Assembly (NCBI GenBank): GCA_903926205.1 | Contig: CAIYID010000001.1 | Location: forward strand, 1 to 64,000 | Origin: an uncultured Bdellovibrionales bacterium | Lineage (GTDB): Bacteria > Bdellovibrionota > Bdellovibrionia > Bdellovibrionales > Bdellovibrionaceae | Length of the DNA: 64,000 nucleotides | Reading direction: 5' to 3' | Shown: one piece after another, positions 2,234 to 31,422 of the stretch | Layout: every line of letters begins with the position of its first letter | Numbering within the stretch: the stretch's first letter is position 1 | Notes under the pieces: model-generated | Seen by the model: only the letters and a program-made list of their open reading frames with translations | The model's database searches: none | What the model was told of the DNA's origin: nothing | Made by a program: the position numbers and the translations under genes

Positions 2234-3040
2234 TCAAAAAGCGCTTAATTTTTTCTTGTTTATCCCTGCATCAAGAATTTTCCAAGCCAAGTCCGGTGCA
2301 ATGGCTTCCGTATCAAAAATTCCTAGTCGAGTAAGAATTGATTTTGTAGCCGTCGGATGAAGCCCCGAGATAATCACTAAACCTTTGCCGGACCAAATTT
2401 GAGAGATCGCCGGAGTCCCGTCAGAATATTTTGCAATGACTCCTCCCGGAACGTCCGGAGTAATAGGTCCCCCATACCAAAGTTGATTTCGTTTTGTACC
2501 ATCAGGAAAAAAAGCAGTTGTTAATGCAAATCCAAAGCCTTGATTGTAAAGAAAATTGGTTTGTTGAATGGGGCCATCGACAAAACCTATTCCGTAAGAA
2601 ACGTCTTTGCCAGGAGGAGGTGCTGGTGCAACAGCGAGCCAAGCTCCGGCGCAAAAGCCCAAGTAATCCAAGCCCTCAATCTGCACGGCTTCCCGCAGCC
2701 GCGCGTGAGTGTGCGGGCTTAAATGTTTGGTGACGGTCTCTGCATCTCCACCGGGAATAACCAAAAGTCGATATTTGATCAAATCATTCAGAGGCATCCG
2801 GTCTAACTCTGGCGCTTTGACCTCATTATAAGTAGCACCATTCGAATAAAGAGTTTCTTTCAGAGAATTAATTTCCGGTCGCCATGAACCTATTCCGCCA
2901 TAGATTAGAACATCAGTGCGATCGACACCTGGGTTAATCGACGGAGCCGAATTCGCAGAGGAGTTAGTAGACCGCAAATTACATGAAGTGAGAGTCGTCG
3001 CAAAAATAAAACTTAAAATTAATTTTTGTCGTGCAAACAT
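2234..3040 (-). CDS. Lipoprotein with BPL_N (DJ-1/amidotransferase-like) domain
   Basis: Predicted lipoprotein of 268 aa, last gene of the minus-strand operon that starts at 7770. ATG at 3040 gives a compact lipoprotein signal ending TTLTSC (Cys20). The upstream TTG at 3058 would add six charged residues and is less likely. The mature part matches the BPL_N family, a class-I glutamine-amidotransferase/DJ-1-like fold: a glycine-rich strand (DVLIYGGIGSW), IPGGDAETV, and a nucleophile elbow GFCAGAWLA with the expected Cys. The substrate is unknown; the fold is used for amide hydrolysis or cofactor-like chemistry. It lies 30 bp after the outer-membrane protein gene. It meets the kinase gene tail-to-tail with only 4 bp between the stops. 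Confidence 0.75.
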   Translation of the reverse strand: MFARQKLILSFIFATTLTSCNLRSTNSSANSAPSINPGVDRTDVLIYGGIGSWRPEINSLKETLYSNGATYNEVKAPELDRMPLNDLIKYRLLVIPGGDAETVTKHLSPHTHARLREAVQIEGLDYLGFCAGAWLAVAPAPPPGKDVSYGIGFVDGPIQQTNFLYNQGFGFALTTAFFPDGTKRNQLWYGGPITPDVPGGVIAKYSDGTPAISQIWSGKGLVIISGLHPTATKSILTRLGIFDTEAIAPDLAWKILDAGINKKKLSAF

Positions 3041-3070
3041 ATCTTCATTCTTTTTCAAAATTTCTTTATT

Positions 3071-3919
3071 TCAAAATTCCTTTAAAAGGGAAATTTCCGT
3101 CCAAAAATCGTTTGTCGGGTTCACCGTTGGTTCATATGACCATTGTTGATTAACACTGGCAACAAGGCTGGCTCCGCTCGTTTTAACTTCTGCGAGGAGT
3201 GACGCGGTCGAGTGACTCAAGCCCGGTCTAACGCCGAAGGCCCCATCGTTATAGTTGAGACTTGCTGAAGTACCGGCATAGGCTTCACTAAAAAAGGAAA
3301 AAATTCGGGGAATCCAATGAGTGTATTTTAGTAAAAATTCGTGGTGGGTACCCCCTTGATAGAGATCACGACGATCCTGCGCCCAGTAGATCCAATAGTA
3401 GATATTATAGGATGGAATCAGAACTGATTCTGACAATGGCAATAGATTGAACATCGATATGCCAGCGTGAACTTTACTGCCATGTCTATGGACATCAGAA
3501 ATCGTATCGCCAAAATTGTCTTTATAAGGAAGTGAGTTGGGATAAAACCAATAGTCATAAAAACTATGGAATTCAAAAGCATAACGAGAGTTATTTAAAA
3601 AATTTTGATGATAGAGTACAAATAAATCATGTTCGTCATTTTCTTTTTTATCTCGATTGATGGGTAGTGCTGACCAGTACATGAAGGAAAATCTTTTTGA
3701 AGGTGTATCAATTTTTAGTGATAACTCCATCACTGGAGCGCCTCCGCCTAATTTAAAGCCATCCATCATGTACTCTGAAGCATAGGTCACGTTGGCCGTG
3801 CTGGAGTAAGAAGAGTTAGAAGTTGGAGGTATGGCGAGTGATTTTTTGGAATTCTCAGTGGCGCTGTATCCTTCGAAACTAAGAAATAGAGCGGTTGAGA
3901 AAATAAGTAGATGCTTCAT
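3071..3919 (-). CDS. Outer-membrane protein, porin-like
   Basis: Secreted protein of 282 aa. ATG at 3919 overlaps the TGA of the upstream transporter gene (ATGA), which fixes the start; a longer frame upstream is an overlap artefact. A signal peptide (MKHLLIFSTALFLSFEGYSA) is followed by alternating aromatic/polar strands typical of a beta-barrel (TANVTYASEYMMDG, FSFMYWSALPI, YAFEFHSFYDYWFYP), and the protein ends in Phe. The opening TYASEYM..GFKLGG resembles barrel proteins of the TorF-like putative porin group. I infer that it forms the outer-membrane passage for whatever the neighbouring inner-membrane channel carries. The assignment as a barrel is good; specificity cannot be read. Confidence 0.65.
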   Translation of the reverse strand: MKHLLIFSTALFLSFEGYSATENSKKSLAIPPTSNSSYSSTANVTYASEYMMDGFKLGGGAPVMELSLKIDTPSKRFSFMYWSALPINRDKKENDEHDLFVLYHQNFLNNSRYAFEFHSFYDYWFYPNSLPYKDNFGDTISDVHRHGSKVHAGISMFNLLPLSESVLIPSYNIYYWIYWAQDRRDLYQGGTHHEFLLKYTHWIPRIFSFFSEAYAGTSASLNYNDGAFGVRPGLSHSTASLLAEVKTSGASLVASVNQQWSYEPTVNPTNDFWTEISLLKEF

Positions 3920-4836
3920 TGGGCCCAACTCACATTCAATCGTGGAACGCGGCTCAAGAGCGCAACCCAAATAGTCATGACATAGGGAATGCTCAACATC
4001 GGTAAGTTTAAATTTTTTAGCATTTGATCGGCGGCCAGAGTTAAGAATAGAGAAAGTAGACAAAATAAGAAAATTGTTTTGTAATTGAATTTTTCAGGCC
4101 AGGAAGCAAGTCCTAGTCCCACGAGTCCTGCACTGTAACAATATTGACTCAAGTCACTGTTGATTGGAAGATTCACCGAGAGGAAAAAAACGGCCAGCGT
4201 TGCTAAGGCTGTGCCCAGCAAGAAAAAAATACCCATTCGCGGGCTAAACAAGGAAATAAGAATCAAAAGTCCAAATCCATAAGCAGGATCGGGCAAGAAA
4301 AAAAGTAGCCCCATGCTTGTAAAAATGGACAAAATAATACGAAAAACCGTGTTGAGTTGATAAGAGTCATCAAGAAAAAAGATGGAGTTTTTTAAAAACT
4401 CGGTGTGGTTCTGAAATTCAAAAGAGAAGGCTTTGGCGCTAAGAAAAAAAACCCAAACCACAAAAATATAAGAAATAATATAAGGGCTTAATTTCCAATG
4501 CTGCAAAATCTCAAAAGCCGCTTTGGTGGCCAGTGGCACGGCAAAAGCTCCAATCGCCAAGCAAAGATAAAATTGTGTGGACTCCTTAAAAAGGCTGGCC
4601 ATGGCGATGCCGAAAAAGAAGCCATTGATTGAGAGTAAACCACCATCTTTTAAAATTTTTGGCGTTCGATTAATTTTTTCATACCAATAGCCAATAAGAG
4701 CGGCGAAAAGACCGCACCCAAAAAGATGAGGACTAAAAATAATTGAAAGCGTAAGAAAGGCGATGCCGAAATAAATATTTCTGAAAAATAGAACTTGGCT
4801 CATTTCTTCAAAAAAAGTTGTAAAATTTTGTTTCAT
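3916..4836 (-). CDS. Urea-transporter-family (UT) membrane channel
   Basis: Hydrophobic protein of 306 aa with about 8-10 membrane segments. The pattern fits the UT family (urea channels): the early motif LLSINGFFFGIAMASLF corresponds to the family's NG..G..L signature, and the second half has the related SIPYVMTIWVALL segment. The UT fold is a two-repeat channel for urea or small amides. ATG at 4836 forms an ATGA overlap with the preceding stop, which favours it over ATG 4848 or TTG 4857. The stop overlaps the next gene the same way, so three genes are translationally coupled. No urease genes are in view, so the solute may be a urea-like or amide product of the flanking enzymes and not urea itself. 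Confidence 0.75.
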   Translation of the reverse strand: MKQNFTTFFEEMSQVLFFRNIYFGIAFLTLSIIFSPHLFGCGLFAALIGYWYEKINRTPKILKDGGLLSINGFFFGIAMASLFKESTQFYLCLAIGAFAVPLATKAAFEILQHWKLSPYIISYIFVVWVFFLSAKAFSFEFQNHTEFLKNSIFFLDDSYQLNTVFRIILSIFTSMGLLFFLPDPAYGFGLLILISLFSPRMGIFFLLGTALATLAVFFLSVNLPINSDLSQYCYSAGLVGLGLASWPEKFNYKTIFLFCLLSLFLTLAADQMLKNLNLPMLSIPYVMTIWVALLSRVPRLNVSWAQ

Positions 4837-5492
4837 AAGTCCACCCATTCTCCACAACTTAAAAATTTATCGCCCCATCTGAGTAAACGCGGGCATTCCG
4901 AGCGAATAGCGAGCAAAGCGCCAAAGCCGATTCGCTCTAAAGGTTCATACCAGCCACCAAAAGTTGAGTCGTACACTTTGGCGGAGCCATCGGGTAATTC
5001 AATAATGCACACTTCATGGTAAACAACTTGGTCACCGATCCAGTGGAAAACATCGCCTGATCGACGACCTTCTTTGCGAGGCATTTTTGTTCTCCAAAGG
5101 TCTTTCCAATGATTCGTGCAAGTGTCATTGTAAACCAAAAGACATTGTCCTGAGTGCACTTGATGTCCTTGCGCTTTTAAAATTTCTTGCGCCAACGCCG
5201 CGAAAACTCCGCAGTCGAGGGTCTTTTCTTTCACTAATTGGCACCAAGAAATTGGCCAAATTGAAGGACCCCAGTTAAAGAGCTGAGAAAGCCAAACCGG
5301 TGCCTTCAAATCAAATTGAGAACAAGACCAGCCCTCCATTGAACGAGCATAAGACAAAAACCAAAGTCGCGCATGCTGACAGCATTCTTGATCATGGTGA
5401 ATGATTGAAGAAGTTGGATGCTCAATCCAACGATTATAAAATTCCTCGGAATCGAGAAGCTCTCGAATTAAATTATCCGCGACCGAAATCAT
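4833..5492 (-). CDS. Transglutaminase-like cysteine protein
   Basis: Soluble 219-aa protein, no signal peptide. Candidate catalytic residues in the order used by transglutaminase-like/papain-fold enzymes are Cys in KTLDCGVFAAL, His in VVYHEVCII and Asp in KVYDSTFGGW. The region between is Trp- and Cys-rich. Such enzymes hydrolyse or exchange amide bonds. Its start overlaps the end of the ATP-grasp/decarboxylase gene by 20 bp, and its stop overlaps the urea-transporter-like gene by 4 bp. I infer that it processes an amide made by the upstream ligase. The exact family is not recognised, and the triad assignment is by eye. Confidence 0.6.
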   Translation of the reverse strand: MISVADNLIRELLDSEEFYNRWIEHPTSSIIHHDQECCQHARLWFLSYARSMEGWSCSQFDLKAPVWLSQLFNWGPSIWPISWCQLVKEKTLDCGVFAALAQEILKAQGHQVHSGQCLLVYNDTCTNHWKDLWRTKMPRKEGRRSGDVFHWIGDQVVYHEVCIIELPDGSAKVYDSTFGGWYEPLERIGFGALLAIRSECPRLLRWGDKFLSCGEWVDL

Positions 5493-7770
5493 AACTCATA
5501 CTCCTTTCATAGGCGCCCGCATCACCAAAAATAATGAGGTCGCCTATTTTAATGTTGTCTGGAAGTTTAATTCCTGTATTGAGAATATCGCTTTCCATAC
5601 AAATTCTTCCTAGGACTTTTGTTTTTCCTTTTTCCACAATCTGACAAGCATCCGCAGAATCGCTGAACTCGCTAGGTTTATAAAAAATTCGATGAGCGTA
5701 GGATTGGATGAGTGGAAGCTCGGCCACGCAGGCATCAACCACCACTTCAGAAACTTCTTTGGCTTTTGGTGATTTTCTCACACTCAAAACTCTTGAAACC
5801 AGAATTTCTCCCTCTTGAGTCAATGAACGTCCAGGTTCGAAATAGATAGCCTCCACTTTTGGTAAAGCTGAATGTACACTTCTTTGAATCCACTCAAAAT
5901 TAAGTCCCTCTAAATCAGAAGGAAAAAAACCGCCACCAAAATCTAAGCGCTGAACTGGAACATGGGTGAGATTTTCTACGACTTCGCACCAAGTGAGAAT
6001 CGATTGAAAGGCTTCTTTCCAGCGTTTAACACCGATGATCCAACTCGGCATATGAAAATGAAACCCAAGAATCGCTTGACCCTTTAATTTTTTTATTCCA
6101 GCAATGATGCGTTCGAAATTTTCATACTCATCAACTGGAATTCCAAAGCGCGACGGCAGTTTTGGAAGACGAATTCTCATGCCGATGCAGCCGGAAATGC
6201 TGGGAATCTCAAGCACTCGATCGAACTCTTCAAAGGAATCACAGAACAGCATATGCAAGCCCATCACTGGCGGAGTCGTGAGAGGCCAAAATTTCCCAGG
6301 TCCATTGAGGATGATTTCATTCGATGGAGTACCAGCCCTAAGAGCACGATGCACTTCCATTTGACTGATGCATTCGGTGTAAAATCCGGACTTTCTGGCT
6401 TTGGCGAGATGCATATCGGTTGGGCAGGTTTTAACGCTGTAACCAATGCGAATTTCGGGAGATCTTTTTTTTGATTGTTGTACGCTATCGATCAAGGATT
6501 GAAAACGTGACATCGTCCAATTTTCAAGATGAATTCGTGAAGGAGTTTCACCCGAAAAATCCGAAGTCACGGAATTCACTTCGTCAGAATATAATTGAGG
6601 CACCGATTCTGGAATTCTAATGGGAGTGGGTTCGAATTCTTCATCTTCAGAATCAAAGCCGCGAAAATCCATGGTGTCTCTCAAGGGGGGTATAAAGGAG
6701 GATTGACTCGGTCCAGACTTTCCCTTTTGTCCATCAACTGGCCAAGGTGTCAGACTTGGATCTGGAGGCAAAGGAATTCCAACAGTTTCTTTCGCCGCGA
6801 TCTCTTGAACCACTCGAGTGAAAAAGGGATAATGACTTTGTGATTCAAGAAGAGGAAGGTCCCAGGCTTTTGAAACAATTCTTCCAGGTAAATTATTTCC
6901 AATCAAAGCAGAACCATAAATCCAAGCAGGAAAACGTGGATTGCATTCGATCACCCATTTTTTTCCATCAGGATCGCGAGTGTATTCGATTTCGCCACCA
7001 CCGCACCATTCGAGTTTACGAATGGTGGTTTTCAAGCCTTGAAAAAGTTCAGAAGTGACGGGAGTGACCCGACCAGCCCAGGTTTTTCCTTCCGGCGTGA
7101 TCAATCTTTTTTCCATATGAACTGCCGAAATGAGTTCACCTTGATGAGCGGCAAAGCAGATGGACTCTTCATTACCGATCATATTTTTTTGCACAAAAAG
7201 CTGAGTGGTCTTCCAGTCTTTTTGCATTTTATCACGAGCCTGTTGAAAAACTTCCCAAGAGGTCACACGTTTGGCATCATGGTAAGGGCCTTTGATCCAA
7301 CACTGCCAAGCATTCTGGCGAAGAAAAGAATGCACTTCATTATCAGATAAATAAGCAGAGATATTCTCTGGCACTTCAAAACCCAGATGAGTGAAGGCTT
7401 CAACATGAGGTTTCGAAGTTCGCTTCAACGCCGAACCACTCGGGCATATTAAATTAGGATGAGTTCCAAAATTTTGTGCCAACCAATAAACTTCAACATC
7501 CAGCGCAGAAATCCAAAGATTTCCTTCATCTAGAATAGCATGTATTTGCGAGATATGTCGCTTTCGATCAATTTGCTTCCATTGAGGAAGAAGAAAAGCT
7601 TCATCAACAGATGAGTCATGCAATCCTGAACTCCCTTGCCAATGATCGACACCAACAAGTGTTAAATCAGGAAAGGCTTTGCGAAGGCATCTTGCAATTC
7701 CCACGCCGGCACTTGGGTTTTGCCCTGAATGCATTCCACTGATATAGATTTTCTTTTTCGACATTTTCAT
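5473..7770 (-). CDS. ATP-grasp ligase / PLP fold-III decarboxylase fusion
   Basis: Bifunctional-looking enzyme of 765 aa, first gene of the operon, with a near-perfect ribosome site (AGGAGG four bases before ATG). Residues about 1-330 form an ATP-grasp domain; the metal/ATP site motif EIEYTRDPDG..WVIECNPRFP is clear. After a Pro-rich linker, residues about 400-765 match group-IV (fold III) PLP decarboxylases such as diaminopimelate, ornithine or arginine decarboxylase: PLP lysine in GYSVKTCPT, LDFGGGFF, phosphate-binding YFEPGRS, a CMESDIL active-site segment and terminal GAYERSMS. ATP-grasp enzymes join a carboxylate to an amine, so the two halves could ligate an amino acid and decarboxylate a substrate or product. 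Both active sites look complete. The combination with a urea-channel gene is unusual. Substrates are unknown. Confidence 0.85.
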   Translation of the reverse strand: MKMSKKKIYISGMHSGQNPSAGVGIARCLRKAFPDLTLVGVDHWQGSSGLHDSSVDEAFLLPQWKQIDRKRHISQIHAILDEGNLWISALDVEVYWLAQNFGTHPNLICPSGSALKRTSKPHVEAFTHLGFEVPENISAYLSDNEVHSFLRQNAWQCWIKGPYHDAKRVTSWEVFQQARDKMQKDWKTTQLFVQKNMIGNEESICFAAHQGELISAVHMEKRLITPEGKTWAGRVTPVTSELFQGLKTTIRKLEWCGGGEIEYTRDPDGKKWVIECNPRFPAWIYGSALIGNNLPGRIVSKAWDLPLLESQSHYPFFTRVVQEIAAKETVGIPLPPDPSLTPWPVDGQKGKSGPSQSSFIPPLRDTMDFRGFDSEDEEFEPTPIRIPESVPQLYSDEVNSVTSDFSGETPSRIHLENWTMSRFQSLIDSVQQSKKRSPEIRIGYSVKTCPTDMHLAKARKSGFYTECISQMEVHRALRAGTPSNEIILNGPGKFWPLTTPPVMGLHMLFCDSFEEFDRVLEIPSISGCIGMRIRLPKLPSRFGIPVDEYENFERIIAGIKKLKGQAILGFHFHMPSWIIGVKRWKEAFQSILTWCEVVENLTHVPVQRLDFGGGFFPSDLEGLNFEWIQRSVHSALPKVEAIYFEPGRSLTQEGEILVSRVLSVRKSPKAKEVSEVVVDACVAELPLIQSYAHRIFYKPSEFSDSADACQIVEKGKTKVLGRICMESDILNTGIKLPDNIKIGDLIIFGDAGAYERSMSYDFGRG

Positions 7771-10497: not shown

Positions 10498-11283
10498 ATG
10501 TATTTATGGTGCTCCTACTGTCAAAAATTTATTGGTGAAGTGGCACCTTACGATCAGCATGATATTTCTCATGGTATTTGTAAAAAATGCGTGAAAAATA
10601 AAGTAGTGTTTGATCTCGATCGAATTCATAAGTCGCAGGAGATTGCGAATCTTTTTCTTCAATTAAAAGAGGCTGTAAAAGATCGGAATTTCACTTTCAT
10701 CCGCAGTCAATATTCCCGATTAAAATCTTTATCGGTTTCAAATAATGATATTTTTTCTGGCATTTACCAACCATTACTCTATGAGATTGGCAGGCTTTGG
10801 GAAACTCGAATTCTTACGATGGCGGAGGAGCATGAAGTCACTTCGACCATTGAAGAGGTGGTCTCTCTTGGCTTCAACGAAATTCCAAACATTGAAAAAT
10901 TGAGAAATTCATCGACGCCGATTGTGTTAATCACTTCAACCAGTCAAAATCAGCACATATTGGGGTTAAGACTTCTTGAGTATTGGCTCTGTGAAAATGG
11001 AATTAAAAATCTTGTGATCGTACCTGGTCTGCCAAGCGAAGAAATATTATCATTGGCAAAAAAATTTAAACCTGTGGTGGTTGGATTATCAGCGACCATG
11101 CCAAGTCAGGAGCTCAATCAGGCACTGACCAAACTTGTCGAACAAGCGAAGGGATCAAGAATCGTCTTCGGTGGTCGGTTTGCTCGTGATTGTGAGTCCG
11201 CCGATTTGCCGAAAGGTGTGACCATTTGTAAGAATATTGAAGATTTGCACGCGGTACTTGTTCAATGCAAGGTCATGACGTAA
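10498..11283 (+). CDS. Cobalamin-binding sensor with N-terminal CxxC zinc-ribbon-like motif (copy A)
   Basis: 261-aa soluble protein. Residues 1-35 hold two CxxC knuckles (Cys5/Cys8, Cys28/Cys31) with His21 and His25 between, a likely metal-binding ribbon. Residues about 45-130 match the four-helix B12-binding-2 bundle of CarH-type photoreceptors: IGRLWE followed by MAEEHEVTST, where the EH pair is the conserved upper-face element. Residues about 135-255 are the Rossmann-like B12-binding domain with SQNQHILGLRLLEYW (lower-ligand His near 153), VVGLSAT and VFGGRF. It lacks the MerR DNA-binding domain of CarH and so resembles AerR-type cobalamin antirepressors. It lies 16 bp before a heme-oxygenase fusion gene. 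Light sensing is inferred, not shown. Confidence 0.8.
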   Translation: MYLWCSYCQKFIGEVAPYDQHDISHGICKKCVKNKVVFDLDRIHKSQEIANLFLQLKEAVKDRNFTFIRSQYSRLKSLSVSNNDIFSGIYQPLLYEIGRLWETRILTMAEEHEVTSTIEEVVSLGFNEIPNIEKLRNSSTPIVLITSTSQNQHILGLRLLEYWLCENGIKNLVIVPGLPSEEILSLAKKFKPVVVGLSATMPSQELNQALTKLVEQAKGSRIVFGGRFARDCESADLPKGVTICKNIEDLHAVLVQCKVMT

Positions 11284-11299
11284 AGGAATTTGAGTTAAT

Positions 11300-12604
11300 A
11301 TGAAAACGAAGCCAACGGCCTCAATTTCCCAAAGAATTAAAAAAGAAACCGCCGAGTTACATCAGAGAGCAGAATCAGTTTCATTTTTTTCGGAGCTACT
11401 TCAGCTTAAAGCAGAAAAACAAACCTATATTTCTTATTTGCGGATTTTAGCAATCATTCATGCCACTCTTGAAAAAGAGGTTTCGAATTCTGATCATGTT
11501 GTATTGAAAACTCTTTGGCAGGAAAAAATGCGGCGCTTACCTTTGTTAGAAGAGGACATTGAAATCCTCATCACAAGCAAAAAAGCAGATAGCCTCAACT
11601 GGACAGAAGTTTATGCAGAACCCGACACTCCCATCAGTATTGCTCTTAGGTTGGCTCTAAGAATAAGGGTTTTATCAATGGAAAATCCTTTTCAGTTGCT
11701 GGGTTTTCTTTATGTTCTTGAAGGTTCAACAAACGGTGGAATTCGCATGGCTCCTAGGGTGACAGAGGCCTTTGGACTTTCAGGAAATGCAGGTGTTCGG
11801 TATCTGATGAATTATGGTGAAGAGCAATCAAGAGAATGGCAGAATTTTAAGCAGCGCTTGGAAGAGGCCGTTATCAGCGAGGATGATGTGACGGCGATTT
11901 TGGCTGGCGCTAAAGAAATGTTTCAGAATTTGATTGCAGTTTTTGAAGCTCTGTCGGTCCCGACGAAAGAAAAAGTCGTTCATGCTTCTATTTTAAATCC
12001 CGAAGCAGGAAGTCATGTTGTTCCTCAAGCTGGTTTAGAGTTAGAAGCCTCATTTATCGTGGCCAAGAAGTGTTTGCAGGCTCTCCCTTATGTGTTTATG
12101 CGGTATGGAGAGCGGGGTGAGCGGTTTACAAAAAGTGATGGTGCGTGGATTATTACTCTGGCTGATTTTTCAGATAGAGTGGTTTTTAATCAAATCGAGT
12201 GGCTAGGAAGATTATTGAGCGTTTTAGGAATACCGAGGTTCACTTTAGAACTCAATCTTCGAGAAGCGGCAAAAGAGCTCAGCACTTTACGCCCAACAAG
12301 CAAAGATAAATATGCTGTCTTGGTTCGGGCCGCTGATTTGCTTGAACAAAATCGCAAGGACATTATTCCTTTAAAGCGGCAAGAAGAATTGCAGCAGAGA
12401 TTTTTAGCGGCGCTGAATCCGGCAGAACTAGAGACCTATAGAAATATAGATAATATTTTAATTTCAAGTGTCGCAGATGAAAAGATGGATGGTTTGGGTG
12501 CGCTTGGAAAAACTCTTGAATGGATTCAAGAGAAATCGAACTGGCCAAAAAATGTTATTCGAGCGGCACTGGATTTGGTTAAAGATTTACAAAGCACTTT
12601 ATGA
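11300..12604 (+). CDS. Heme oxygenase-like protein with unknown C-terminal domain (copy A)
   Basis: 434 aa. Residues about 8-215 match bacterial heme oxygenase (BphO/HemO type): the proximal-helix motif KKETAELHQRAES with His21 as heme ligand, and the distal-helix motif FLYVLEGSTNGG, both intact. Such enzymes open heme to biliverdin, CO and iron. Residues about 230-434 form a second helical domain with the conserved stretch RYGERGERFTKSDGAW and LADFSDRVVFNQIEWLG, which I cannot assign. The gene follows the B12-binding gene by 16 bp, and the same pair recurs at 29306-31422. A role in making biliverdin for a photoreceptor, or in sensing heme, is inference; no phytochrome gene is in the window. 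Confidence 0.75.
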   Translation: MKTKPTASISQRIKKETAELHQRAESVSFFSELLQLKAEKQTYISYLRILAIIHATLEKEVSNSDHVVLKTLWQEKMRRLPLLEEDIEILITSKKADSLNWTEVYAEPDTPISIALRLALRIRVLSMENPFQLLGFLYVLEGSTNGGIRMAPRVTEAFGLSGNAGVRYLMNYGEEQSREWQNFKQRLEEAVISEDDVTAILAGAKEMFQNLIAVFEALSVPTKEKVVHASILNPEAGSHVVPQAGLELEASFIVAKKCLQALPYVFMRYGERGERFTKSDGAWIITLADFSDRVVFNQIEWLGRLLSVLGIPRFTLELNLREAAKELSTLRPTSKDKYAVLVRAADLLEQNRKDIIPLKRQEELQQRFLAALNPAELETYRNIDNILISSVADEKMDGLGALGKTLEWIQEKSNWPKNVIRAALDLVKDLQSTL

Positions 12605-24173: not shown

Positions 24174-24668
24174 ATGAACAAATATTTTATTTTAGTGGTC
24201 TTGATTGTGTTCGGCGCCGTATTTTCACAAGCGCAGATTTGTGAGAAGGGTGCGAAGGAAAAAGCAGAGCAGACCTATATCGATGCTATTTCGGCCTGTC
24301 GCTCAATACCCTCTTTTTGCATTTCAGCGAGCTACTCGAATGACAGTGCTTGTCGTTGCTCTCATCCGAGTTATTGTTCTTTAATTTCCTATGGAGAGAC
24401 CTTAGCTTGTGAAGGATCTCATCCTAGTTATTGCTCCGCTGCAAGTAACGCTAATTTGTTGGCTTGTTTTGCCGCCGTGCCTTCCTATTGTTCTTTCGCG
24501 AACTATGCGAACACGAAGGCTTGTCAAGGCGCCCATCCTTCCTATTGCAATAGCCCTTCTTATGCAGAGGCCCTCGCTTGTGAAGGCGCCAGGCCAAGTT
24601 TTTGTTCTTTTCCAGACTACCGAAAAACACTGGCGTGCAAAGCAATCATCACAAGACCCTGTCAGTAA
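24174..24668 (+). CDS. Secreted Cys-rich protein with 19-residue repeats
   Basis: 164 aa with signal peptide (ends SQAQ) and AAGGAGAA before the ATG. After a short helix the protein is made of about six tandem repeats of 19 residues, consensus ACxGxHPSYCSxxxYxxTL, each with two Cys in fixed register. The first repeat is 18 long and the last is cut short (ACKAIITRPCQ). The Cys pairs could form a disulfide ladder or bind metal. DNA copies have drifted, so the repeats are old or under selection at protein level. No family recognised. Confidence 0.75.
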   Translation: MNKYFILVVLIVFGAVFSQAQICEKGAKEKAEQTYIDAISACRSIPSFCISASYSNDSACRCSHPSYCSLISYGETLACEGSHPSYCSAASNANLLACFAAVPSYCSFANYANTKACQGAHPSYCNSPSYAEALACEGARPSFCSFPDYRKTLACKAIITRPCQ

Positions 24669-25539: not shown

Positions 25540-26604
25540 GTGTTAGCGCTTCTTGATGCCGACAATATATACATGCTTAAAAACTATAATGACTTTATTC
25601 TTAGGTCCATCAGAGATTGGAAAATGCCTTCCACTGTAGCTATCACGATTATTTGCGGTCACTTTTTTGGCGAGTGGCCCTGGTTGGTTCTGGCACAAGG
25701 AATCGTATTTATTTATTTTATCGGCAAGAACTCGCAAAAGAGCGAAGCGTTCGTGCAAGCTCAGCAACTGGCGATGGAAGCCCGCACGAGCATGATTCAA
25801 AATCAAGTCAACTTACAGCTCAAACAGCTCGAGGAATCAAAGGAAGTCATTCGCAATCAACAGCAAACTCTTGTTGAATCAGCAAAAAATGCAGCCCTCG
25901 GAGAGATGGCCGGCCAAATTGCTCACGAAATTAATACTCCACTTGGAGCTGTGGTTCTTACCACTCAGGCCATGCTCAAGAAAGTTCAAACTCAAGGGAT
26001 TCCGCCTCAAGAGATGAGTGAAAAACTTGAACTCATTCTAAAAATTGCAGCAAGGCTCGGTCGAATCATCAGCTCTATGCGCAAACTTTCTGCTCAGGGG
26101 GGGAATGAAGCCATCAGAGAAGTTAGTTTTAAGGGACTTATCGATGATACTCTGTTGCTGTGTGAGGGGCGGCTAAGGAACTCAAATATTAATTTCACTT
26201 CACAAATTGAGTTGGCTGAGAATGCAACGGTTCAGTGTCGACCTAGTGAAGTTTCTCAAGTGCTTCTAAATTTGATCAATAATGCTGTTGATGCTTTAAA
26301 AAATATAGATGAAAAGTGGATTCGGCTGCAAGTTTCTGCTCGCGCCGAGATTGTTACGGTACGAATTATTGATAGCGGTACGGGAGTTGCGCTCGAGCAT
26401 CAAGCTAAACTTTTTACTCCGAACTTTACCACAAAATCACTGGATATTGGAACCGGCTTTGGGCTTTCCATCTGTCGAAAATTAATTGAAAAACATGGCG
26501 GAAAAATCAGTCTTGAACCTGGTGTGAATACGACCTTTGCCTTTGAATTGCCGTTGCGCCAAACGGAGGCTATTACTAATAACTTAACTCGTGCGGTGGG
26601 GTGA
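25540..26604 (+). CDS. Membrane histidine kinase of the B12/heme-oxygenase operon
   Basis: 354 aa from GTG 25540 (GAGGT just upstream, spacing short); ATG 25573 is a possible alternative. Two short membrane helices at residues about 25-65, a coiled coil to about 115, H-box GQIAHEINTPLGA (His near 129), N-box QVLLNLINNAVDAL, then DSGTGV, a phosphate-loop TKSLDIGTGFGLSIC and HGGKISLEP. There is no recognisable sensor domain, so the signal may come from the membrane or from a partner such as the B12 protein encoded downstream. The TGA at 26602-26604 is in frame with the receiver gene that follows three bases later. Confidence 0.85.
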   Translation: MLALLDADNIYMLKNYNDFILRSIRDWKMPSTVAITIICGHFFGEWPWLVLAQGIVFIYFIGKNSQKSEAFVQAQQLAMEARTSMIQNQVNLQLKQLEESKEVIRNQQQTLVESAKNAALGEMAGQIAHEINTPLGAVVLTTQAMLKKVQTQGIPPQEMSEKLELILKIAARLGRIISSMRKLSAQGGNEAIREVSFKGLIDDTLLLCEGRLRNSNINFTSQIELAENATVQCRPSEVSQVLLNLINNAVDALKNIDEKWIRLQVSARAEIVTVRIIDSGTGVALEHQAKLFTPNFTTKSLDIGTGFGLSICRKLIEKHGGKISLEPGVNTTFAFELPLRQTEAITNNLTRAVG

Positions 26605-26607
26605 GCT

Positions 26608-27933
26608 ATCAGACGAATTCTCATTGTTGAAGATGATTTATTTTTTTCTCAAGCCGTTCAGTCGATTCTGGAGACAGAGGCGTATGCAACCATGTTGGCT
26701 TCGAATGGTAAGGCCGCGATAGAGCTTTTGAAAAGCGAAAACTTTGACTGTGTGTTGAGCGATGTTCAGATGCCAGTGATGTCAGGTCGTGACCTCGCAC
26801 TTTGGGTTAAACAAAATTTATCTATTCCAGTGATTTTAATGTCAGGTTATGTGGACAAGATCGATACGAGTTTGGCGATCGCTTCTAACGCCTGCAATTT
26901 GATCATCAAACCCTTTGAGACAAATGAATTATTAGATGCTTTGAATATGGCATTTCAGGGAACGGATAAATTAGAAAAATCAAATAAGATCCCAGAGAAT
27001 TTTGTTGTCGTGCCTCTCACGGCGATCAGTCCTGGAGTCTGTGCTGAATTTAACCTTTATGATTTTGAAGACGGCCATTTGCGAAAGCTTGTCACCCGAG
27101 GAGAATTTTGGAATTTTGAAAAAATTAAAAAAACGAAGGACACCAAGTTTTATACGGAATCGAACAGTCTTACGACCTTGGTCTCTCACAGTATTCTTGT
27201 CGCTAAGGCCTCTTTGGCCAGTTCAACCATGAATCGTCAAAAGCGGGATGAAATCATTGAAGATGCGGTACAAGTTATTTTCGATAAAGTCGGAGCTTGG
27301 GGCGTTGATGCAAGCACTTTGCAAGGTGCCGTTGAAATGATAACAATTTACATGAAAGCGATTGATGAAGTTTCGGTTTGGAGCTTGATGTCCAGTTCAG
27401 ATGGAAAAGCCTGCACTATTTATGCTCAGTCTTTGGTTGTGACCTCAATCTGTCTCATGATCGCGCACCGAAAAAATCTATCGACTCATGACTGCATTGA
27501 ACTGACGACGGCGGCGTTGTTTCACAACATAGGATTGAGGCAGATCAATCCACTGATTTTGGAAACTCCGAAGGCTTTACGTTCTATGCGTGAACGAATA
27601 CAAATCGAAAAACATGTTGAAGAGGGTGTGATGATTTTAAAAAAGGGTGGAATTGTTTCGCCTGAGGTCTGTGAAATCATTCATCAACACCACGAAAATT
27701 TCAATGGCTCGGGTTATCCTCAAAAATTAATTCGGGATCAAATTTATGTCTTAGCTCGAATTCTACGAGTTGCGGATGAACTTTTTATTACAGTCACGAA
27801 ACACCCCGGACATCCAGGAATGACTCCCTTGCAGGCGATTGAAAGATTAAAGACCCTTCCAGAATTGGATCAGGACTTTGTTAACGTTTTGGCAGAATTA
27901 TTTAACCAAAAAAAGGTGAAAGACTGTGCTTAA
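26608..27933 (+). CDS. Receiver + degenerate HD-GYP-like response regulator, non-ATG start
   Basis: 441 aa if read from ATC 26608. The receiver motif RRILIVEDDLFF begins immediately there, with phospho-acceptor Asp in LSDVQMP near 52 and Lys in IIKPFE. No ATG, GTG or TTG occurs in frame between the kinase stop and ATG 26692, which would delete the first strand and acidic pocket. GGGG at 26598-26601 could serve as ribosome site. A middle domain (about 130-240) precedes an HD-type domain (about 270-420) in which the metal-binding HD is HN (LFHNIGL) and the GYP motif reads NFNGSGYP. Loss of the HD Asp suggests a non-catalytic partner or receptor. It overlaps the next gene by 8 bp. Confidence 0.75.
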   Translation: MRRILIVEDDLFFSQAVQSILETEAYATMLASNGKAAIELLKSENFDCVLSDVQMPVMSGRDLALWVKQNLSIPVILMSGYVDKIDTSLAIASNACNLIIKPFETNELLDALNMAFQGTDKLEKSNKIPENFVVVPLTAISPGVCAEFNLYDFEDGHLRKLVTRGEFWNFEKIKKTKDTKFYTESNSLTTLVSHSILVAKASLASSTMNRQKRDEIIEDAVQVIFDKVGAWGVDASTLQGAVEMITIYMKAIDEVSVWSLMSSSDGKACTIYAQSLVVTSICLMIAHRKNLSTHDCIELTTAALFHNIGLRQINPLILETPKALRSMRERIQIEKHVEEGVMILKKGGIVSPEVCEIIHQHHENFNGSGYPQKLIRDQIYVLARILRVADELFITVTKHPGHPGMTPLQAIERLKTLPELDQDFVNVLAELFNQKKVKDCA

Positions 27934-29296
27934 TATTTTATTAGTTGAAGATGATGAGTATTTTCGTAAGGCCGTAGAATCCATTTTGCTAGATGAAAAA
28001 TGGAAAGTGACTCTTGCGCCTGATGGAAAATCTGCCCGCGAGATGATTAAAACAATGAAGCCCTTTGATGTCATTGTTTCAGATATTCAGATGCCTTTTT
28101 TAACAGGAGTTGAATTGCTCGAATGGATTAAAAAAAATAAGCCTACGCCGGTTATTCTGATGACAGGCTTCGCTCTAATCATGGAAACAAAGCGGGCCCA
28201 TGACTTAGGAGCCGATGACTTTTTAGCGAAACCCTTCGAGGCCGAAGAATTGATCGATGTGGTTAAACGGGTGTGTCACGCAAAGTTGTCTCAAGAGGAG
28301 GGGGCCCGCCCCAAGGTCACCTCCGCCGCCATGGAGTTTTGTAAAGTGGCTATTGATGAGTTTGTGGCCTCACCAAAACTGCATTTTGATGTTTACGTTA
28401 AACTGAGTGAGACCCGTTTAGTTAAGATCGCTAAAAGAGGAGACTCCATTCCTTTGGATCGAGTACAAAACTTTAAAGGTAAAGGCTTGAATTATTTGTA
28501 TATACGAAAAGAAGATTTTCAACAGTTAGTAGAATTCAACCTGAGTTTAGCGAAGGTTGTCGTTAACGCAGAAAAAGTGAGTACGGAAAAGAAAGCCAGT
28601 TTTTTGCGTTACACGGGTGAGGTTATTATGGAGAAGGCCTTCATCAGTGGCGTTGATAAAGAAGCCTATCAAAATGCATCGGATTTTCTGATGATTAGTA
28701 TGAATGTGCTCGCGGATGAACCCACCACTCTCGACATATTGAATAGTCTCAATGTTCATTCCGATTTTCTTTATGCTCACAGTCTTTGCGTGAGTATTTG
28801 TTCTCATCTGATTGCTGTGCAGTTGGGCTGGACCTCTGTTTCCAATCTTTTTAAGCTGAGCTTAGCCGCGCTTTTTCATGATATTGGAAAAAAAGAAATT
28901 GATCGAGAAATTATAAATAAGCCGCGTCCACTGTTAACTTTTTCGGAACGGCAGATCATTGAAACTCACCCCCTCCGCGGAAGGGAAATCTTGTTGCGTC
29001 TTCCTTCCTTGCCATCAGAAGTGGTGGCTGTTGCTTATGAGCATCACGAAGATAATTTGGGGCAGGGCTATCCTCGCGGACTCTCGAAGCATCAAATTCA
29101 CCCATTTGCTCAGATTGTCCGAGTAGCTAATTTATTTGCAGGATTTTATTTGAAAGGACCCGCTCACCCAGGGATGGCGGCCGAGGCGGCCATGGTGCAT
29201 ATGGCAAGGCACTATCTTGATTCTATGAATCCAGAGGCTTATCGAGCGATTCGGACAGTTCTGGGAATTAATGGGAAGTACTCTGCGGCATTATAG
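27926..29296 (+). CDS. Receiver + HD-GYP response regulator
   Basis: 456 aa from GTG 27926 behind AAGGTG. Receiver domain with VEDDEYF, phospho-acceptor Asp near 53 (IVSDIQMP) and Lys in FLAKPFE. Middle domain (about 140-230) like that of the preceding protein. HD-GYP domain with intact AALFHDIGK (HD near 317), THPLRG, YEHHEDNLGQGYPRG and RVANLF. HD-GYP enzymes hydrolyse cyclic di-GMP, so this is the likely active output of the operon. It is a paralogue of the previous protein, whose HD has changed to HN. Nine bases separate it from the B12-binding gene. Confidence 0.85.
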   Translation: MLNILLVEDDEYFRKAVESILLDEKWKVTLAPDGKSAREMIKTMKPFDVIVSDIQMPFLTGVELLEWIKKNKPTPVILMTGFALIMETKRAHDLGADDFLAKPFEAEELIDVVKRVCHAKLSQEEGARPKVTSAAMEFCKVAIDEFVASPKLHFDVYVKLSETRLVKIAKRGDSIPLDRVQNFKGKGLNYLYIRKEDFQQLVEFNLSLAKVVVNAEKVSTEKKASFLRYTGEVIMEKAFISGVDKEAYQNASDFLMISMNVLADEPTTLDILNSLNVHSDFLYAHSLCVSICSHLIAVQLGWTSVSNLFKLSLAALFHDIGKKEIDREIINKPRPLLTFSERQIIETHPLRGREILLRLPSLPSEVVAVAYEHHEDNLGQGYPRGLSKHQIHPFAQIVRVANLFAGFYLKGPAHPGMAAEAAMVHMARHYLDSMNPEAYRAIRTVLGINGKYSAAL

Positions 29297-29305
29297 GAGT
29301 AAAAG

Positions 29306-30094
29306 ATGTTTTCTTGGTGTTCATACTGTCAAAAATATTTAGGTGAATTCGCTCCCTACGACCAGCACAATATTTCTCATGGTATTTGCAAGCAATGTCA
29401 TGATGGAAAAGTTGTTTTTAATCGAGAGAAAATCCAAAAATCAAAAGAAATTGCTGTTCTTTTTGCTCAAATGGGTGAAGCCGTGAAGAAAAAAGACTTT
29501 GCGTTTATAAAAACTCAATATGAAAAACTGATCGCATTATCCGTTTCCAATAGTGATATTTTTTCAGGAATTTATCAGCCTCTGCTTTATGAAATCGGAA
29601 AACTTTGGGAAAACAGAGAAGTCACCGTGGCCGAAGAACACGAAGTCACTTCGACCATCGAAGCCTTGGTCGATCTGGGTTTTAAGGGAATTCCGAATGT
29701 TGAAAACTTAAGAAATTCATCAAAGCCGATGGTCATGATTTCCTCAACCAGTCAGAATCAACACATCCTGGGTTTACGGCTCATTGAACATTGGTTGTGT
29801 GAAAAAGGGATAGAAAATCGCATCATTGTTCCAGGTATGCCAGAGGACGAGTTTTTGTCTTTGGCGCAAAAATTGAAACCGCCAGTGGTCGGTTTGTCTG
29901 TTGCGCTTCCGACTCCAGAGGTTAAGCGGACATTGACAAAACTTGTCCAACAAGCCAGAGGTGCGCGGGTTATTATTGGTGGACGATTTATTCGAGAATA
30001 TATGCCGAACGACTTACCTGCAGGAATAACTCTTTGTAATAATATTCTTGATCTCTCTGATGTTCTAATTCAGAGTAAATTGCTAGCTTCCTAA
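29306..30094 (+). CDS. Cobalamin-binding sensor with N-terminal CxxC motif (copy B)
   Basis: 262 aa, TAGGAG ribosome site. It aligns along its whole length with copy A at 10498: the same Cys5/Cys8 and Cys28/Cys31 knuckles, the helical-bundle motif GKLWENR..TVAEEHEVTS, and the B12 loop SQNQHILGLRLIEHW with the candidate Co-binding His. No DNA-binding domain is present. Its place in an operon with a kinase, two receivers and a heme-oxygenase gene suggests that it senses cobalamin or light and acts through protein contact, as AerR does, but that is inference. Confidence 0.8.
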   Translation: MFSWCSYCQKYLGEFAPYDQHNISHGICKQCHDGKVVFNREKIQKSKEIAVLFAQMGEAVKKKDFAFIKTQYEKLIALSVSNSDIFSGIYQPLLYEIGKLWENREVTVAEEHEVTSTIEALVDLGFKGIPNVENLRNSSKPMVMISSTSQNQHILGLRLIEHWLCEKGIENRIIVPGMPEDEFLSLAQKLKPPVVGLSVALPTPEVKRTLTKLVQQARGARVIIGGRFIREYMPNDLPAGITLCNNILDLSDVLIQSKLLAS

Positions 30095-30108
30095 TAAGGG
30101 ATTCACCA

Positions 30109-31422
30109 ATGGACTCCAAACTATCAGTATCAGTCACACAAGCCTTAAAAGAACAGACAGACTCTTTGCATCGAAGAGCGGAGTCGACACGATTCTTCAT
30201 CAGCCTGATGCGCTGCCAGGCGACCATACCGGATTATATTACTTTTCTGCGCATGCTTTCGATTGTCCATTCAGTCCTAGAAAAAGAAATCACTAGTTCA
30301 GAAAATGAAAAATTGAAACTGGTTTGGCAGGACAATATGCGGAAATTACCCTTGCTGAATGAAGATATTCAAAGTTTTACCGATAGCAAAAAAAATAGTT
30401 TTAGCCATTTTTCAGAGATCTATGCCGATGCGACACAGCCCATTCACCAAGCTCTTGAATTAGTACAAAAGATAAAAACACTCGCCTTAAAAAATCCACT
30501 ACAGCTTGTCGGAGTCCTCTACGTGACAGAGGGCTTTACTAATAGCGGAGTTTATATGAATCCGCGTATAACTCAAGCCTATGGACTTTCTGGTGACATC
30601 GGAATTAGATATCTCAAAAATTATGGCGAAGCTCAGCCTGCGGAATGGAATGATTTTAAGCGTCGCCTTGAGTTGGCCATCACGAGTGATGAAGAGTTGG
30701 CCGAAGTTCTCATTGGTGCAAAATATTACTATGAACAATTTATTCTTATGTTTGACTCACTGGGAACTTCGCTTCAGCCAAGATCCGTGCAATCGACTTC
30801 TATCAATCCAGAAGCCGGCAATCACCCGGTGCCTCAAAACGAATTAGAGCTAAGAGCCGTCTTTATTGCTTCGAAGGCGTCACTTGTCGAGTTGCCTTAT
30901 GTGCATGCTCGTTATGGAAAACGTGGTGAAAGCTTTTCGGATAGTGATGGAGCCTGGCTGGTGACACTCGCCGATTTTTCTGAAAAAGTTGCTTTCAAAC
31001 AAACGGAGTGGTTGGCTAAATTATTAAGTGCCCTAGGGATGCCAAGTGTCACTTTGGAAATTCATCTTCGCGAGATTGCCAAAGCGTTAATGGTTATGAT
31101 TCCAGAAGAATGCGAAAAATATTCTGTCTTACTTCGAGCGGCTGAACAGCTTGAACTCAAGCGCCACTCAGTGGTGCCTCAAGAATTACAAGAGGAAGTT
31201 TGTCAGGAATTTCGAAGAGTCATTGCTTCAACGGAAATAGAGTCCTATAAAAACCTGGAAAGAATTTTAGTTTCGACAATGGCTGATGAACGCATCTTTG
31301 GTACTGGTGCGCAGACAAAAACTCTGGCTTGGATTTATGAAAAATCGAATTATCCAAAACACATCATTCAAGCAACTCAAAAATTAGTGCAAAGACTGAA
31401 TGACTGTATTAAGGCTCAATAA
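30109..31422 (+). CDS. Heme oxygenase-like protein with unknown C-terminal domain (copy B)
   Basis: 437 aa, 14 bp after the B12-binding gene. Proximal motif KEQTDSLHRRAES keeps His21. The distal motif reads LYVTEGFTNSG in place of copy A's LYVLEGSTNGG, so two positions near the heme (Ser to Phe, Gly to Ser) differ and activity may be altered. The C-terminal domain keeps RYGKRGESFSDSDGAW and LADFSEKVAFKQTEWL. The two copies are similar along their whole length, so the fusion is old. Substrate is presumably heme; it may instead act as a heme sensor. The 3' end overlaps the opposite-strand gene by 14 bp. Confidence 0.75.
   Translation: MDSKLSVSVTQALKEQTDSLHRRAESTRFFISLMRCQATIPDYITFLRMLSIVHSVLEKEITSSENEKLKLVWQDNMRKLPLLNEDIQSFTDSKKNSFSHFSEIYADATQPIHQALELVQKIKTLALKNPLQLVGVLYVTEGFTNSGVYMNPRITQAYGLSGDIGIRYLKNYGEAQPAEWNDFKRRLELAITSDEELAEVLIGAKYYYEQFILMFDSLGTSLQPRSVQSTSINPEAGNHPVPQNELELRAVFIASKASLVELPYVHARYGKRGESFSDSDGAWLVTLADFSEKVAFKQTEWLAKLLSALGMPSVTLEIHLREIAKALMVMIPEECEKYSVLLRAAEQLELKRHSVVPQELQEEVCQEFRRVIASTEIESYKNLERILVSTMADERIFGTGAQTKTLAWIYEKSNYPKHIIQATQKLVQRLNDCIKAQ

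Follow-up and report, generated by a model that had tools for sequence, protein, structure and literature searches.

Why would a cobalamin-binding protein and a heme oxygenase stand directly behind a histidine kinase and two receiver-HD proteins? This question is raised by a run of five open reading frames (ORFs), all on the + strand, at 25540-31422 of a 64,000-nucleotide window (the whole stretch of DNA analysed here) from an uncultured Bdellovibrionales bacterium. A first-pass annotation had read the run as one operon, possibly a light- or heme-gated switch for cyclic di-GMP turnover. The five adjacent genes were found at the place and with the spacing it gave, and Pfam confirmed their domains. 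Phylogenetic distribution and residue analyses suggest that a relative of the photocobilins, split over two proteins and making its own chromophore, is encoded by the last two genes and probably gates the upstream kinase or HD proteins; the probability of this explanation as a whole is put at about 0.6. The earlier interpretation is thereby upheld in part: its light-sensing side is well supported, by a CarH-type signature and by fusion of the heme oxygenase to a globin with invariant biliverdin-contact residues, whereas gating by heme found no support. The domain identities, conserved residues, and gene pairing were computed directly. The features are as follows.

25540..26604, + strand: histidine kinase (Pfam HATPase_c 9.5e-23, HisKA 1.2e-8)
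26608..27933, + strand: receiver-HD protein 1, HD1 (Pfam Response_reg 1.6e-22, HD_5 3.3e-25), with a predicted start
27926..29296, + strand: receiver-HD-GYP protein 2, HD2 (Pfam REC and HD_5; active-site residues read)
29306..30094, + strand: CarH-type cobalamin-binding protein (Pfam PF02607/PF02310, PDB match to CarH, signature table)
30109..30783, + strand: heme oxygenase domain of the HO-globin fusion (Pfam PF01126 4.5e-19; residue comparison)
30784..31422, + strand: probable bilin-binding globin domain of the fusion, BBAG-2/photoglobin-like (structure model, Foldseek, profile, invariant residues)
10498..11283, + strand: paralogous zinc-ribbon B12 protein, 65% identical to the operon copy
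11300..12604, + strand: paralogous HO-globin fusion, 48% identical to the operon copy, with intact HO residues EGSTNGG

The kinase stops at 26604 and HD1 begins at about 26608 (3 bp); HD1 and HD2 overlap by 8 bp, HD2 and the B12 gene are separated by 9 bp, and the B12 and HO-globin genes, which are two separate ORFs, by 14 bp. The neighbour downstream is convergent. The second B12/HO-globin pair, at 10498-12604, was absent from the first-pass annotation; its genes are 16 bp apart, and no kinase adjoins them.

The last gene had been described as a heme oxygenase (HO) fusion. The HO domain was confirmed (69.5 bits against a cut-off of 23), and the proximal His (His21 in the operon copy) is retained in 13/13 HOs compared; the fusion partner, a globin of the bilin-binding type, had been missed. 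This C-terminal half of 210 residues has no Pfam match, and searches with the domain alone against Pfam, the PDB, and plasmids gave no matches. The key profile was built from HO-linked domains only, with known globins excluded, and was searched with about 950 neighbouring ORFs as background. It matched seven BBAG-2-like globins of the Myxococcota at 3e-12 to 4e-10, and the photoglobin-B12 fusion L064 at 4e-8 (a five-row version gave 4e-10 to 4e-7 overall); nothing else among the ORFs scored better than 0.008. An AlphaFold2 (AF2) model of the domain, from five rows of which none is a known globin, was all helical, with a predicted local distance difference test score (pLDDT) of 87.7 and a predicted template-modelling score (pTM) of 0.85. 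In the Foldseek search with this model, chains of the photocobilin structure 8J2W ranked first and fourth (probability 0.96, 21-22% identity); as the E-value is only 0.9, this support is drawn from the probability and from the consistency of the matches. Profile A6 gave five PDB matches, including 8J2X/8J2W and allophycocyanin aligned via the chromophore motif (E 0.11-0.57), which are not independent because the profile includes one photoglobin row. A first AF2 model from two rows was discarded as too poor (pLDDT 48.6), with globins and 8J2W already among its weak Foldseek matches; the weak phylum-wide matches that the two-row profile gave were judged to be chance. The domain was also considered as a second, degenerate HO, which was rejected because the profile and fold searches lead to globins.

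In the photocobilin SasPcob, Asp270 binds biliverdin, and Trp296 is in contact with biliverdin as well as with the corrin (PMC10979010). These residues map to D280 and W301 of the window protein (chain offset 6, from Trp61), and neither column varies in any of the 26 globins compared. B12 and biliverdin would therefore be tied together as in the photocobilins. All 18 members of this branch, HO-linked or solo, have Pro at the Cys position of the BBAG-2 motif RGMC (the operon copy reads LGMP); therefore, a bilin would be held without that Cys, and SasPcob also binds biliverdin without a covalent Cys. From its profile matches, modelled fold, and conserved residues, the C-terminal half is most likely a bilin-binding globin of the BBAG-2/photoglobin kind, with biliverdin as its ligand.

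The B12 protein has Pfam matches to B12-binding_2 (2e-8) and B12-binding (3e-6, under the cut-off of that family). In the PDB search, CarH came first at 6.5e-9, far ahead of AerR (2e-4). The CarH-type signature W-x9-EH...H was found at W101, E111-H112, and H153. In CarH, W131, E141, H142, and H177 contact the adenosine or ligate the cobalt; the two copies in the window have their counterparts, as do most members of the family. CarH H132, which forms the bis-His light state, has no counterpart in the window protein, so that such a state is unlikely there. The light state of SasPcob likewise lacks bis-His ligation, being water/hydroxide-ligated (PMC10979010). Where CarH has its MerR domain, the N-terminus carries a CxxC...HGICxxC motif, probably a zinc ribbon; no helix-turn-helix (HTH) or MerR-type DNA-binding domain was matched in Pfam. 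A third zinc-ribbon B12 paralogue of this genome (52%; G000:C65:38677-39456, L016) lies on contig 65 without an HO and is followed by an MFS-type transporter gene. The B12 genes of the relatives G044 and G093 were also found in L058 (Bdellovibrio sp.) and L057 (Bdellovibrionales). In the L058 bin, a zinc-ribbon B12 gene (L058:2899-3705) overlaps an α/β hydrolase which, judged by eye, resembles the stress-signalling hydrolase RsbQ.

The association of the two genes extends to other genomes. When 85k species genomes were scanned with the B12 protein, relatives of the globin domain emerged, HO-fused in L056 and L049, and solo, overlapping the B12 gene, in L052; a scan of the same set with the two HO fusions alone found none, both patterns being too specific. 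Whole-genome searches identified HO fusions in L063 (a Trueperaceae bin), in L068, L070, L071, and L072 (the phylum of G380, a Gemmatimonadetes bin), and in L073 and L074 (the phylum of G383); in L065 and L066, HO and globin are neighbouring but separate ORFs. Among 195 genomes from the phylum to which an Archangium bin belongs (Myxococcota), 55 matched, mostly with a solo globin of about 235 aa that has the RGMC motif and lies directly beside a CarH-type B12 gene. In four Myxococcota loci (L130-L133), there is a fusion of this kind whose HO half is decayed. The globin or HO-globin adjoins a zinc-ribbon-type B12 gene in nine instances from eight genomes: the window (twice), L049, L052, L056, L063 (where the contig ends within the B12 gene), L070, L073, and L074. 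The paired genes overlap by 4-7 bp in L052, L056, L063, and L070. Of 22 genomes reached via the B12 gene, four have the globin domain, always beside a B12 gene, and the distances of the B12 and globin sequences are correlated (r 0.67, permutation p 0.003). Most paired loci are from metagenome bins; the L056 record, titled Klebsiella pneumoniae, is very probably misbinned. Signalling genes flank the module in several places, such as PAS-GAF-HD-GYP by L063, REC/PAS/kinase by L049, and a kinase-receiver before L071. These varied neighbours support a signalling role for the module, although its output is not fixed thereby.

Two published systems are close to this pair. The photocobilins are B12 and biliverdin photoreceptors, including some with a cyclase output by diguanylate cyclase fusion (PMC10979010); the structures compared here were SasPcob (8J2W/8J2X) and AbDPcob (8J2Y). 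Like them, the window pair combines a CarH-type B12 domain, with the W-EH light motif kept, and a probable bilin-binding globin, with the two contact residues invariant; for the photocobilins, a cyclic di-GMP output is known. Unlike them, B12 protein and globin are on separate chains, which places the pair outside the single-chain definition; the globin is fused to HO, and a kinase/HD system apart from the sensor would serve as output. For BBAG-2 and its Myxococcales relatives, Rockwell and others have described clusters of B12, globin, and HO genes, and biliverdin binding was shown for two proteins, photoinert alone (PMC10151467). There, a homologous globin lies by a CarH-type B12 gene (Myxococcales, pre-2 clusters), with an HO in the same genome; this homology was set by BBAG-2-like globins (RGMC, beside B12 genes) that fit the published description, not by the published sequences. 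The window globin differs in its HO fusion and in being RGMP-type without the Cys, its B12 partner has the extra zinc-ribbon-like N-terminus, and no bilin reductase was recognised beside the pair. Thermus CarH shares the B12-binding fold and the W/EH/H signature; the window protein is without its MerR HTH and H132 counterpart. Overall, the pair probably works like a photocobilin and is related to the association of BBAG-2, B12 protein, and HO, as a fused variant of RGMP type. The first-pass remark that the arrangement was not a known one is thus half right, as B12, globin, and HO clusters (PMC10151467) and cyclase-output photoreceptors (PMC10979010) were already published. No literature report of an HO-globin fusion was found, with the original photoglobin paper (PMC8717448) outside the comparison, and priority is unproven.

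The following mechanism might be proposed. The B12 protein would bind adenosylcobalamin as CarH does, as its signature suggests, and would be switched by green light. The HO of the partner protein would make biliverdin and hand it over to the globin, which would hold it against the B12 domain. By analogy with the solved photocobilins, the two chromophores would be optically coupled, and red light would drive the same Co-C bond cleavage. Light would then alter the assembly of the two-chain B12/HO-globin complex. Because the kinase has no recognised sensor, the complex probably gates the kinase or its two receiver-HD partners, as the contiguity of the operon suggests. More tentatively, the HO-globin may be a self-loading photoreceptor subunit, which converts heme to biliverdin for its own globin and docks on the separate B12 protein, giving a green/red switch over a phosphorelay; Gemmatimonadota, Myxococcota, Deinococcota, and Bdellovibrionota would then share this architecture.

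Several observations weigh against this photocobilin-like reading. In the operon HO, the distal EGSxxGG motif is changed to EGFTNSG (residues 141-147); it is also broken in L068 (EGSMAGA), and intact in the 11300 paralogue. The operon copy may therefore be enzymatically weak or dead, and its biliverdin might come mainly from that paralogue or from the third HO of the genome, a single-domain protein on contig 19. In the zinc-ribbon family, the cobalt-ligating His is kept, but it is preceded family-wide by NxH instead of E/DxH. No HO-globin was found in 18 of the 22 genomes with this B12 family; therefore, the B12 protein can work without it. For the HO-globins of L068, L071, and L072, none of the neighbouring genes read is a B12 gene. 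In L056, a globin close to that of the window is paired with a distant B12 protein, so that partners can be swapped. Finally, there are relatives in which the kinase-HD half stands without the pair. Two side observations concern the HO half. The fusions of L130-L133 have lost the distal glycine motif of HO while their globin is well conserved, which suggests that the HO-globin family can lose HO activity. In L052, the HO-less globin is preceded by an ABM-domain protein (L052:8969-9391), of a family that includes IsdG-type heme-degrading enzymes; it is a possible HO substitute.

The upstream half bears on the first rival explanation. The kinase has a short hydrophobic N-terminus followed by HisKA and HATPase_c, and no input domain was recognised by Pfam. 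HD1 and HD2 both contain REC and HD_5 domains (down to 1e-26 and 1e-25) and share 29% identity. Of 110 relatives, 60 have HD2-like proteins that match at 1e-40 or below. In 18 neighbourhoods read, a kinase is mostly close by, and B12 or HO-globin genes are near none (0/18). On these grounds, the kinase with a receiver-HD protein is an ordinary Bdellovibrionota system, to which HD1 and the sensor pair were added in this genome. The pair might then be a movable two-gene light-sensing unit that merely stands behind this system and is functionally untied from it. The kinase and HD2-like pairs that stand alone in relatives, the 10498 pair with no adjoining kinase, and the absence of the five-gene order from every other genome searched favour such a bystander; the HD2-B12 gap of just 9 bp on the same strand, and the signalling genes that flank the module in L063, L049, and L071, argue against it, and it is considered unlikely. 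Conservation of gene order, proposed earlier as a check, was accordingly seen for each of the two halves separately, but not for the five genes together.

The pair could instead serve bilin supply or storage, with the HO-globin making and holding biliverdin for a bacteriophytochrome and the B12 protein being regulatory only. The genome does encode such a protein (L090:6778-8307, 509 aa; PHY 3.1e-31), PAS-GAF-PHY-like with an N-terminal Cys and no kinase domain seen, and the BBAG-2 globins bind biliverdin yet are photoinert alone (PMC10151467). However, the phytochrome is on another contig with hybrid-kinase genes of its own adjoining, the globin is paired with a CarH-type B12 gene in seven other genomes, and the two residues that make the optical contact in photocobilins, Asp and Trp, do not vary. 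This explanation is improbable, and the bacteriophytochrome is possibly another user of biliverdin. Least probable is a cofactor sensor for which light is irrelevant, a cobalamin- or heme-status sensor in which the B12 protein reports cofactor supply by AerR-like antirepressor logic and HO frees iron from heme: AerR is among the PDB matches, and iron release is a common HO role, but the CarH match is far better with the W/EH light residues kept, no iron-uptake genes were recognised adjoining either pair, and an enzyme for iron release would hardly be expected to be fused to a bilin globin.

The output of the system is less well defined than its light-sensing part. HD1 has an intact receiver, but its HD site reads HNIGL instead of HDxGK; HD2 keeps HDIGK...H...HH...GYP, with Asn replacing the Asp of VAD. 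The residue set of the HD-GYP phosphodiesterases (HDxGK, later His, GYP, VAD Asp) is thus incomplete in both. Both changes weaken the earlier proposal of cyclic di-GMP turnover. With HD1 lacking catalytic residues, HD2 atypical, and the distal helix of the operon HO altered, a cyclic di-GMP switch is weakly supported. The top NCBIfam match of both proteins is the NosR-type response regulator HD-GYP family (NF053512), which they resemble in having a receiver and HD_5; they differ in score (123-127 bits against a curated cut-off of 400) and in their degenerate HD sites. No ATG, GTG, or TTG lies ahead of the HD1 receiver, the first such codon being at 26692 within the domain. The receiver is in the frame of the kinase and resumes one codon past the kinase TGA (26602-26692 region). 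HD1 likely starts at a non-canonical ATC at 26608, preceded by GGGGTGA, which could act as a ribosome site. Alternatively, it might start at an ATT, or the kinase and HD1 ORFs might formerly have been one hybrid-kinase gene.

If correctly read, the locus would widen photocobilin-like sensing: a form split over two proteins and supplying its own chromophore would exist in several phyla, and one of its carriers would be a bacterium related to predatory ones. By the fusion (Rosetta-stone) argument, HOs near BBAG-2/photoglobin proteins would make the chromophore of those globins, and biliverdin would be their ligand. For red/green optogenetics, the pair might also offer a small set of parts. Should its tie to the kinase and HD proteins prove true, this would be the first such sensor feeding a phosphorelay known to us.

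A promoter scan gave 11 promoter-like sites against 12.3 expected by chance, which is no excess. Recent horizontal gain was considered from base composition and rejected; the G+C of the region equals that of the window. Elsewhere in the window, 24174-24668 encodes a small secreted protein in which Cys-rich units (PSYC/PSFC) are repeated, for which no Pfam match and no DNA-level tandem repeat were found. On the - strand, the gene group at 2234-7770 may form a small pathway for an amine or a peptide; it encodes a 765-aa PLP-decarboxylase fusion whose N-terminal half matches ATP-grasp weakly, a member of the urea-transporter family, and uncharacterised proteins.

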